NCBI RefSeq assembly: GCF_025639805.1
Contig: NZ_CP106735.1
Coordinates: 4,435,501 to 4,499,500, forward strand
DNA from: Reichenbachiella carrageenanivorans
Lineage (GTDB): Bacteria > Bacteroidota > Bacteroidia > Cytophagales > Cyclobacteriaceae
Reading direction: 5' to 3'
Length of the DNA: 64,000 bases
The stretch's first letter is position 1. The number at the start of each line of letters is the position of its first letter. The notes under the pieces are model-generated. The model saw only the letters and a list, made by a program, of their open reading frames with translations, was not told the origin of the DNA and searched no databases. Both the position numbers and the translations under genes were made by a program. Of this stretch, positions 5,722 through 12,595 are shown one piece after another.

Positions 5722-5800
5722 CTTCTTTAAGTAGTTAATATGCGTATCGAATAGCTAGACCAAAGGCCTAAATATTCGATACACCTATCTCATGTCTATT

Positions 5801-9950: not shown

Positions 9951-10841
9951 TTACACTAATGTAAAATCGCTTAGTTCGGCATTGCTCACTCGCTGACGAT
10001 ACATGAGAAACAGGTCATAAGCTACTGTTTCTTTCCAATCGGCTTTAAATTCCATGTCGTCGATCGATGCAATACTCGCTACCTCTGTAGCTGTACCTGT
10101 AAAAAAGGCTACTTCTGCTCCTTTCATTTCTTCGGGTTTGAATAGCTTTTCTACTACTGGATACCCCAACTCCATGGCATATTCGATGATGGTAGCTCTA
10201 GTGATACCTGGTAAGATATTGCCCAAAGGTGGTGTATAGATCACATCATCTTTTACAAAGAAAAAGTTTTGACCAGACCCTTCGGCTACATAACCGTCAG
10301 CGTCTAACATCAATGCTTCGTCGAATCCTTTCCGCTTGGCTTCATTGGAAGCCATGATCGAGTTGGTATAGTTGCCACTTACTTTGGCATCTACAGGGAT
10401 CGATTTCGGATTAGGTCTTTCAAACGACGAGATCATTACTTTCAGTGCTTCGTCACCCAAGTATGGAGGCCAATCCCAAGCAGCCATCATCACATGTACT
10501 TCTCCACAAGAAAGCAGTTTCATATTGGCACCGAGGTATACCAGCGGGCGGATGTAGGCATTGGTCAAGCCGTTTCTATCTAGTAATTCATAAGAGACTT
10601 TGACTAACTCATCGACGGACTGAGTGATTTTAATATTCATTCTTTCGGCAGAATACTTTAGTCTTTCAAAATGTTCCTTGGCCTTGAAGATATTGGGTCC
10701 TGCTGCACCAGCATAAGAGCGTATCCCTTCGAAGACACCATTTCCATAATGCATGGTCTGGCTAAACAAGTCAACTTTCGCTTCTGATGCCTTTACCCAT
10801 TGTCCGTCAAGGAAAAGGATCGAGTTGTCGTTGTAATACAT
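9951..10841 (-). CDS. ilvE: Branched-chain amino acid aminotransferase
   Basis: Class IV PLP aminotransferase for the last step of valine, leucine and isoleucine synthesis. MHYGNGVFEGIRSY, the AEGSGQNFFFVKDD segment and LGNILPGITRATIIE are family signatures. Length 296 is normal. It is the first gene after the double leader/terminator region, so it and the genes behind it would be the direct targets of that control. The ATG at 10841 follows a 42-base spacer after the second terminator. Confidence 0.96.
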   Translation of the reverse strand: MYYNDNSILFLDGQWVKASEAKVDLFSQTMHYGNGVFEGIRSYAGAAGPNIFKAKEHFERLKYSAERMNIKITQSVDELVKVSYELLDRNGLTNAYIRPLVYLGANMKLLSCGEVHVMMAAWDWPPYLGDEALKVMISSFERPNPKSIPVDAKVSGNYTNSIMASNEAKRKGFDEALMLDADGYVAEGSGQNFFFVKDDVIYTPPLGNILPGITRATIIEYAMELGYPVVEKLFKPEEMKGAEVAFFTGTATEVASIASIDDMEFKADWKETVAYDLFLMYRQRVSNAELSDFTLV

Positions 10842-10883: not shown

Positions 10884-10917
10884 AAAAAAAGCCTTACTCG
10901 GAGGAGAAAGGCTTTTT
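10884..10917 (-). terminator. Attenuator terminator 2, upstream of ilvE
   Basis: On the minus strand AAAAAGCCTT pairs with AAGGCTTTTT (10 base pairs, arms 10908-10917 and 10886-10895). The loop contains a smaller CTC/GAG helix, and the 3' arm runs into seven Us. It stands between leader ORF 2 and the ilvE start, where there is no other gene to terminate, which is the layout of a transcription attenuator. Confidence 0.85.
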
Positions 10918-10947
10918 AGAATTTTTTAAAGTTCCAATATACCAATC

Positions 10948-11025
10948 TCACGACATACCAAAAATGGTAATAATCACGACGGCTAAGACGATGACAATAA
11001 TCGCTATCATTTTTTGGGCTAACAT
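10948..11025 (-). CDS. Leader peptide 2, rich in Ile/Val/Leu codons
   Basis: ATG at 11025, TGA ending at 10948, 25 codons: MLAQK followed by MIAIIVIVLAVVIITIF and GMS. Seven Ile, four Val and two Leu make 13 of 25 residues branched-chain, in an uninterrupted run. It is followed 30 bases later by an intrinsic terminator and then ilvE. The composition matches the known ilv leader peptides of enterobacteria in principle, not in sequence. It could instead start at the internal ATG (codon 6), or be a tiny membrane protein, since the run is also strongly hydrophobic. Confidence 0.75.
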   Translation of the reverse strand: MLAQKMIAIIVIVLAVVIITIFGMS

Positions 11026-11070
11026 TTGGGTATTAAGCTTCCATGAATAAATTCATTTCGGCGAACGCAT

Positions 11071-11104
11071 AAAAAAAGCGTCATTCTGTTGGGAATGACG
11101 CTTT
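11071..11104 (-). terminator. Attenuator terminator 1
   Basis: A perfect 12-base-pair stem, AAAGCGTCATTC with GAATGACGCTTT (11093-11104 and 11075-11086), a six-base loop CCAACA, and a seven-U tail. It lies 26 bases after the stop of leader ORF 1. The RNA segment around the leader stop codon (GAGUGAU) can pair with the GUCAUUC of the 5' arm using G-U pairs, giving a possible antiterminator; that pairing is inference. Confidence 0.88.
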
Positions 11105-11130
11105 AGATTATCTTTTTAAACTATTGCATA

Positions 11131-11199
11131 TCACTCCCGATCTGAGGTCACTGTGACCTCAATAATAATCGCTAATGCTATGACAATAATGTTCTTCAT
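11131..11199 (-). CDS. Leader peptide 1, rich in Ile/Val codons
   Basis: ATG at 11199, TGA ending at 11131, 22 codons: MKNIIVIALAIII then EVTVTSDRE. Six Ile, three Val and one Leu, plus two Thr, are concentrated in codons 4-18. Thr codons fit a pathway fed by threonine. The codons for EVTVTS are themselves a DNA palindrome (11144-11160). The ORF begins about 20 bases after a TACCTTTG -7 promoter element and is followed by a strong terminator, so it fits a ribosome-mediated attenuator in front of ilvE. Confidence 0.78.
   Translation of the reverse strand: MKNIIVIALAIIIEVTVTSDRE
11144..11160 (-). promoter_or_regulatory. Palindrome inside leader ORF 1
   Basis: GAGGTCA and TGACCTC are separated by three bases, giving a 7-base-pair RNA hairpin or a near-perfect DNA dyad. 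In an attenuator it could be the pause hairpin that synchronises ribosome and polymerase. As DNA it could be an operator just downstream of the promoter. The sequence cannot distinguish these. Confidence 0.55.
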
Positions 11200-11220
11200 T
11201 TTTGTTGTTCTTTCGAATAC

Positions 11221-11228
11221 CAAAGGTA
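11221..11228 (-). promoter_or_regulatory. Promoter -7 element before the ilv leader
   Basis: TACCTTTG on the minus strand matches the Bacteroidota -7 consensus TAnnTTTG exactly. The -33 region is weak (a TTGT lies about 24 bases upstream). Initiation near 11214 would put the first base about 15 bases before leader ORF 1. This implies an ilv transcript separate from the leu genes. Confidence 0.6.
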
Positions 11229-12439: not shown

Positions 12440-12595
12440 TCAAATTTCAGCACCGAAGGCAAACAAGTAGCTTTTTCGTTCGCCCATGCATTGAGTGGAT
12501 GATAAAAACTCACGACTATTAGGGTTTAAAGCTTTGGTTTTTGCTTCTTTTTGACCTGTTTTAGTCTCGTTTGTACTTCTTGCTTTATTTTTCAT
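12440..12595 (-). CDS. Small ORF between leuD and leuB, unknown function
   Basis: ATG at 12595 to TGA at 12440 gives 51 residues. It is basic in the first half (MKNKARSTNETKTGQKEAK) and ends TQCMGERKSYLFAFGAEI, with one Cys. It fills most of the 237-base space between leuD and leuB, begins 11 bases after the leuD stop and is on the same strand. It is not enriched in Leu codons, so it is a poor leader peptide. I do not recognise it; the ordered C-terminal half suggests a real microprotein and not chance, but coding status is unproven. Confidence 0.45.
   Translation of the reverse strand: MKNKARSTNETKTGQKEAKTKALNPNSREFLSSTQCMGERKSYLFAFGAEI

Follow-up and report, generated by a model that had tools for sequence, protein, structure and literature searches.

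Organization of the leuB–ilvE gap

The window, that is, the whole 64,000-nt stretch of Reichenbachiella carrageenanivorans DNA analysed here, carries on its minus strand a gap bounded by the end of leuB (11284) and the start of ilvE (10841). An earlier note on this DNA had described a −7 element, a leader ORF, a 12-bp terminator, a second leader ORF and a second terminator in this gap, and all of these elements were located on the minus strand as described (Table 1). The candidate −7 element was recognized by TAnnTTTG, which we take to be the −7 promoter consensus of Bacteroidota. The terminator scan flagged hairpin 1 only, and hairpin 2 was revealed by folding. Downstream of ilvE, the same strand carries ilvD, ilvB, ilvN, an aminotransferase gene, ilvA and parts of an aspartate kinase + homoserine dehydrogenase gene, as assigned by NCBIfam and Pfam matches.

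Table 1. Features of the leuB–ilvE gap and the first gene behind it, in window coordinates
Feature	Position	Strand	Remarks
Candidate −7 promoter element TACCTTTG	11221..11228	−	Bacteroidota type
Leader ORF1 MKNIIVIALAIIIEVTVTSDRE, TGA stop	11131..11199	−	22 codons: 10 I/L/V + 2 Thr
Unit 1 protector hairpin, ORF1 codons paired with stop and post-stop sequence	11120..11190	−	
Apical hairpin within ORF1 end, GAGGTCAC/GTGACCTC	11143..11161	−	
Antiterminator 1, 5′ arm GGGAGTGAT, overlapping ORF1 stop	11130..11138	−	Partner 11099-11091
Antiterminator 1, 3′ arm, a portion of the terminator 1 5′ arm	11091..11099	−	
Intrinsic terminator 1, 12-bp stem (hairpin 11104-11075) + 7 T	11071..11104	−	
Leader ORF2 MLAQKMIAIIVIVLAVVIITIFGMS	10948..11025	−	25 codons, 13 I/L/V; core frame from internal ATG 11010
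Antiterminator 2, 5′ arm GAGATTGGT, overlapping ORF2 stop	10941..10949	−	
Intrinsic terminator 2, hairpin (~10917-10886) + 7 T	10884..10917	−	
ilvE, first gene after the leader	9951..10841	−	NCBIfam and Pfam matches

Three further observations were made on this strand of the window. The interval from leuD to leuB holds a small ORF (12440-12595) ending FLSSTQCMGERKSYLFAFGAEI, and in congeners G001, G002, G004 and G007 a comparable ORF was seen by eye in the stretch that separates the leu gene from the ilvE leader. Between ilvN and the aminotransferase gene there is an inverted repeat (5722-5800) lacking a T run. The aspartate kinase + homoserine dehydrogenase gene (504-2949) is split over two overlapping frames; in all seven congeners it is a single open frame of 814-832 aa, versus 409 in the window, and the split reflects either a frameshift or a sequencing error.

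The two units of the leader have the same anatomy, with an ORF core of 19-22 codons, a TGA that overlaps the antiterminator arm and a stop-to-terminator distance of 25-32 nt. To obtain a chance level for this arrangement, we scanned both strands of the window and of 20 further 20-kb stretches of the same genome, 928 kb of strand sequence in all, with strict cut-offs (at least 15 codons, T run of at least 6, hairpin of −12 kcal/mol or lower, antiterminator duplex of −9.5 kcal/mol or lower, stop distance of at most 45 nt). Three units were found, two of which were the ilvE leader units. The looser rule of the survey described below returned, in the same genome minus the ilvE leader, 25 units per 928 kb and one close pair. 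The fold of leader 1 had a z score of −6.8 and none of 200 shuffles was as good; for leader 2 the z score was −2.3, with 4 of 200 shuffles as good.

Conservation and covariation of unit 1

Conservation was analysed in eight genomes of the genus, with eight rows in the unit 1 alignment and seven in the unit 2 alignment. Unit 1 was present in all eight genomes, and in each of them ORF1 has 22 codons and is rich in Ile, Val and Leu. At the −7 site the exact TAnnTTTG was found in four genomes, and the other four retain a TTTGG box there.

The protector hairpin of unit 1 comprises 28 pairs, eight of which changed on both sides among the eight genomes, and 92.4% of its cells were paired. None of 500 shuffles was as good, 27 of 500 matched its pair-type count, and slid versions of the pairing dropped to 29-50% paired. 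Because rows from kin can beat shuffles without any structure, we regard this covariation as strong but short of proof. Part of it lies in the apical hairpin (helix 2 of the protector), where four of eight pairs were doubly changed and 87.5% of cells were paired. Antiterminator 1 was paired in 72 of 72 cells and showed one compensatory change, from G-C to A-U in G006, which was matched in 66 of 500 shuffles. Terminator 1 (approximately −16 kcal/mol in the window) was paired in 96 of 96 cells over the eight genomes, but with 9 of its 12 pairs invariant this pairing says little, since the terminator hardly varies.

Conservation and weak points of unit 2

Unit 2, consisting of ORF2, the stop-overlapping arm and terminator 2, was found in seven of the eight genomes. 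It is absent from G006, where ilvE begins 33 nt past terminator 1. Antiterminator 2 was paired in 59 of 62 cells with no compensatory change, and slid versions gave 55-77%. Terminator 2 (−13.8 kcal/mol in the window) was paired in 80 of 81 cells, and its one double change was matched in 83 of 500 shuffles. Within the genus, clear covariation is thus confined to the protector of unit 1. The alignment of the gap that the earlier note had called for, run here within the genus, therefore bore out the retention of I/V/L-rich ORFs, antiterminators and terminators, but among the stems clear covariation appeared in that protector only.

The start of ORF2 may be the internal ATG at 11010 instead of 11025. 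This ATG is replaced by GTG in four congeners, one of which has an in-frame ATG farther up, inside terminator 1, and two of which have an in-frame TTG.

A reading in which regulation falls to unit 1 alone, with unit 2 of the window species reduced to a second terminator that is weak or in decay, draws on several of these features. The antiterminator 2 arm of the window, GAGATTGG, has two central mismatches that leave seven pairs, and its duplex reaches −9.9 kcal/mol versus −14.3 in G005 and −14.1 in G003. G006 manages without unit 2, and leader 2 folds less distinctly than leader 1. Set against this, ORF2, the stop-overlapping arm and terminator 2 have been kept in seven of eight genomes although unit 2 DNA differs greatly among them (mean column identity 57%, seven rows), and the seven-pair antiterminator of the window is still predicted to form with a probability of 0.93-0.99 while the ribosome is at Ile, Val or Leu codons. 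We consider it unlikely that unit 1 acts alone.

Modelled switching by the ribosome

We propose that two ribosome-mediated (leader-peptide) transcription attenuators lie in series ahead of ilvE. A ribosome that finishes an I/V/L-rich ORF and reaches its stop would cover the antiterminator 5′ arm, so that the terminator would form and transcription would end. With charged tRNA for Ile, Val or Leu in short supply, the ribosome would stall upstream and leave the arm free to pair with the emerging terminator 5′ arm, and RNA polymerase would read on. As the polymerase would have to pass two gates, read-through should approximate the product of both, and this product rule would reduce the leak and steepen the response to one and the same starvation.

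The pairing choice was modelled at equilibrium by folding the RNA 3′ of the ribosome as far as the terminator 5′ arm, with the footprint edge assumed to lie 13 nt beyond the first base of the A-site codon. In all eight genomes, the modelled probability of antiterminator 1 was 0.92-0.99 with A-site codons 2-17 of ORF1; it dropped to approximately 0.6 at codon 18 and to zero once the stop was reached. Antiterminator 2 dropped likewise, from 0.81-0.99 to zero, in all seven genomes that contain it. The Ile, Val and Leu codons of both ORFs lie inside the permissive stretch: these residues occupied 1 of 32 positions in the last four codons of ORF1 and 0 of 21 in the last three codons of ORF2. In this model, a ribosome stalled at almost any Ile, Val or Leu codon would leave the antiterminator free, and one near the stop would cover it.

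In a leader free of ribosomes, the antiterminator was modelled at equilibrium at 0.65-0.99 before the terminator 3′ arm exists, and a predicted off state was absent. The folding model thus leaves basal termination of the untranslated leader unexplained. The protector of unit 1 covaries, yet the equilibrium model does not have it winning; in minimum-energy folds that include the complete terminator, protector and terminator both hold in unit 1.

Series or parallel arrangement

Alternatively, unit 2 could be carried on a shorter transcript from a second, parallel promoter, with its start at or past terminator 1. Room for such a promoter would exist in the window and in G003, where terminator 1 and the ORF2 core are separated by 60-63 nt; in the other five of the seven genomes this distance is 22-26 nt. 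No TAnnTTTG with at most one mismatch was found between terminator 1 and the ORF2 core in any of the seven genomes, which favours a series over two separate promoters. In G001, G002, G004 and G007, the sequence AATATTTG, one mismatch from the −7 consensus, lies 8 nt before the terminator 1 arm. This weak match makes the choice between series and parallel less secure, although one-mismatch −7 matches are frequent in these leaders. The search covered promoters of the TAnnTTTG type. Taken together, parallel promoters appear quite improbable to us, and a series of two attenuators is the arrangement we retain.

Leader-peptide units ahead of ilvE in Bacteroidota

IlvE-type proteins were searched in 59 relatives, 396 class genomes (49 matched, 1e-75), 390 family genomes (175 matched, 1e-80) and further contigs (78 loci). 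From a subset of all matches we took 199 distinct Bacteroidota loci, one of which was too short, leaving 198. Left out before counting were 12 duplicates, L172 (65 nt of upstream sequence) and L024-L030 (distant or split IlvE); L024, outside the survey counts, showed a unit. The rule called a unit when an ORF of 12-45 codons with at least 38% I/L/V lay within 650 nt and was followed within 45 nt by a hairpin of −9 kcal/mol or lower with at least four T, with an antiterminator duplex of −7 kcal/mol or lower.

At least one unit was found at 155 of the 198 loci (one at 124, two at 31), and 43 had none. These rates are descriptive, as the rule was tuned while part of the same loci was being viewed, and some ORF starts were set too far upstream. 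On the opposite strand, 3 of 198 loci had one unit and none had two, and none of 594 dinucleotide-shuffled upstream sequences gave a double. None of 15 ilvE loci from outside Bacteroidota had any unit. Among the 147 coded loci 125 had a unit, as did 30 of the 51 named ones. By genus, 57 of 66 coded genera had a unit and 12 of 66 a double, the latter from four families (f1, f40, f56 and f72). Named doubles were L039 (a Flavobacteriales MAG), L047 (an Ulvibacter MAG), L072 (a Cyclobacteriaceae MAG) and, both doubtful, L046 and L067. The 31 doubles are counted by rule and include these doubtful two as well as L009 and L010, in which the second or first unit is weak. When 23 loci were read onward from the last terminator, no third unit was found; the same reading turned up a second unit in L176 that had escaped the rule, and a possible one in L166. 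At L193 (G440), a good terminator without a detected I/V/L leader ORF stands directly before ilvE, behind one complete unit. Judged by these sequences, leader-peptide units ahead of ilvE are common in the surveyed Bacteroidota loci.

The survey also bears on a simpler account, in which the hairpins simply terminate transcription of the leu gene upstream, and the ORFs either arose by chance or encode small membrane peptides or toxins. A leu gene does end upstream: leuB in the window and in G003, and a 2-isopropylmalate synthase gene in G001, G002, G004, G006 and G007. The statement in the earlier note that nothing else in the gap needs terminating is therefore not strictly correct, since leuB ends just upstream of the leader in the window. 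The leader peptides are also hydrophobic. However, one ordinary terminator would suffice, and the spacing of stop, antiterminator and terminator is fixed. In the seven genomes scanned for the upstream gene (G005 excluded), unit 1 was retained under either leu gene, which we count in favour of attenuation. Chance ORFs are opposed by the shuffled upstream sequences, which yielded a unit in only 6 of 594 cases. The 186 unit peptides are low in Phe (1.6%), Ala (3.9%) and Trp (1.2%) and contain 7.2% Thr, a composition different from that of usual membrane segments. In the same peptides I/L/V made up 56% of the body versus 19% of the last four residues, while the rule itself requires 38% overall. 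Ordinary terminators with incidental ORFs are thus very improbable in our judgement, and leader-peptide attenuation remains the preferred reading.

Origin of the second unit and linkage to thr genes

In the earlier note, neither peptide was thought to resemble a copy of the other, a view that the DNA makes doubtful. The likeness of ORF1 and ORF2 exceeded that of codon shuffles in five of seven genomes (0-7 of 1000 shuffles reached the score) and was borderline in the window (55/1000) and G005 (62/1000), the seven genomes being kin and not independent. From these sequences, duplication of a unit is possible. On a FastTree tree of the 198 IlvE rows, with L176 and L166 set by hand as tandem and the doubtful L046 and L067 as single, the tandem state changed at least 15 times. 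This is a rough figure, as many rows have only about 100 residues. We do not claim a number of tandem origins, because gain and loss are indistinguishable in this tree and misses by the rule inflate the changes.

In the seven tandem genomes of the genus, thrA lies approximately 7-8 kb downstream of ilvE; in the single-unit G006 it is approximately 40 kb away on the other strand. The idea that the presence of a second unit goes with thr genes in the operon was rejected, as single-unit loci with linked thrA also occur (G014, G072, G570, G518 and others) and the tandem G016, G506 and G023 have thrA on another contig. The comparison was made by reading coordinates in 115 coded genomes plus the eight of the genus, and draft contigs hide some linkage.

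Discussion

Two leader-peptide transcription attenuators in series ahead of ilvE are, with high probability, the best explanation of the sequence. The two-stage, ribosome-mediated attenuation put forward in the earlier note is supported at this level by ORFs, mutually exclusive pairings and terminators in eight of eight genomes for unit 1 and seven of eight for unit 2. The anatomy and conservation of the units, the covariation of the unit 1 protector and the placement of the control codons fit such a device. Translation of the ORFs, stalling, termination and series behaviour under a product rule would then follow, and AND logic, graded control and sharpening of the response may follow from these in turn. 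For Bacteroidota at large, we lean slightly towards the view that ilv leader-peptide attenuators form a class widespread ahead of ilvE, of which several lineages would run two in series as a multiplicative switch for the same signal, steeper and tighter than one gate. If this is true, leader-peptide attenuation would be a main mode of branched-chain control in Bacteroidota, where we found it thinly described. The ilvE leader would then provide a naturally occurring series of two similar gates, and the one-gate congener G006 would offer a comparison for whether doubling sharpens the response.

Leader-peptide control in Bacteroidota may already have been predicted, as the abstract of a 2004 paper by Vitreschak in FEMS Microbiol Lett reportedly mentions candidate attenuators in Bacteroidetes/Chlorobi. 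A search of the open-access literature yielded neither an ilv leader in Bacteroidota nor like intrinsic-terminator attenuators in series that read the same amino acids. In Bacteroides thetaiotaomicron, the transcriptome contains 5′ UTR ORFs that resemble attenuating leader peptides, according to passages of PMC7366714. No Rfam family matched the ilvE leader at gathering level. Bacteroid-trp (RF01692), listed in part of PMC2864571 as a probable cis-regulatory RNA of Bacteroidetes, is linked to trp by its name and hence to another pathway. Kinship with it was rejected: its covariance model matched neither the window nor G000, no hit in the genus exceeded the cut-off, and among 59 genomes one match was over the cut-off (G051). 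A sub-threshold match was noted at G003:C7:12893-13017 (45.3 bits versus a cut-off of 49).

Classic leader-peptide attenuation is a textbook mechanism. The enterobacterial attenuators combine a leader ORF of cognate codons, a protector, an antiterminator and an intrinsic terminator; the units here share the ORF, the antiterminator and the terminator, and unit 1 has a candidate protector. The ilv, thr and leu leaders are known with one attenuator each, whereas the ilvE leader would have two in series. These systems, among them E. coli ilvGMEDA and ilvBN, which are named in PMC1183508, serve the same pathway as the ilvE leader. Induction of ErmB via two leader peptides (PMC8274638) is a translational attenuation, and a second tandem terminator has been reported at rimP in some Gammaproteobacteria.

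The closest layouts appear in sections of PMC3641672. In Salmonella mgtCBR, one leader contains two short ORFs, each within an attenuator, as here. According to those sections, the two mgtCBR attenuators respond to different signals (ATP and proline) in an independent and additive manner, and their stem-loops are unlike intrinsic terminators. In the ilvE leader, codons for Ile, Val and Leu occur in either ORF and both units end in intrinsic terminators, so that the layout is alike but the signals would be the same. The tandem riboswitches of Bacillus clausii metE, as described in the same sections, also place two intrinsic-terminator gates in one leader, but they sense two metabolites directly and without leader ORFs, which are present here. 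Attenuation and tandem attenuators are thus already known, and what appears to be new, judging from the open-access literature searched, is a probable series that would read the same amino acids twice with intrinsic terminators.
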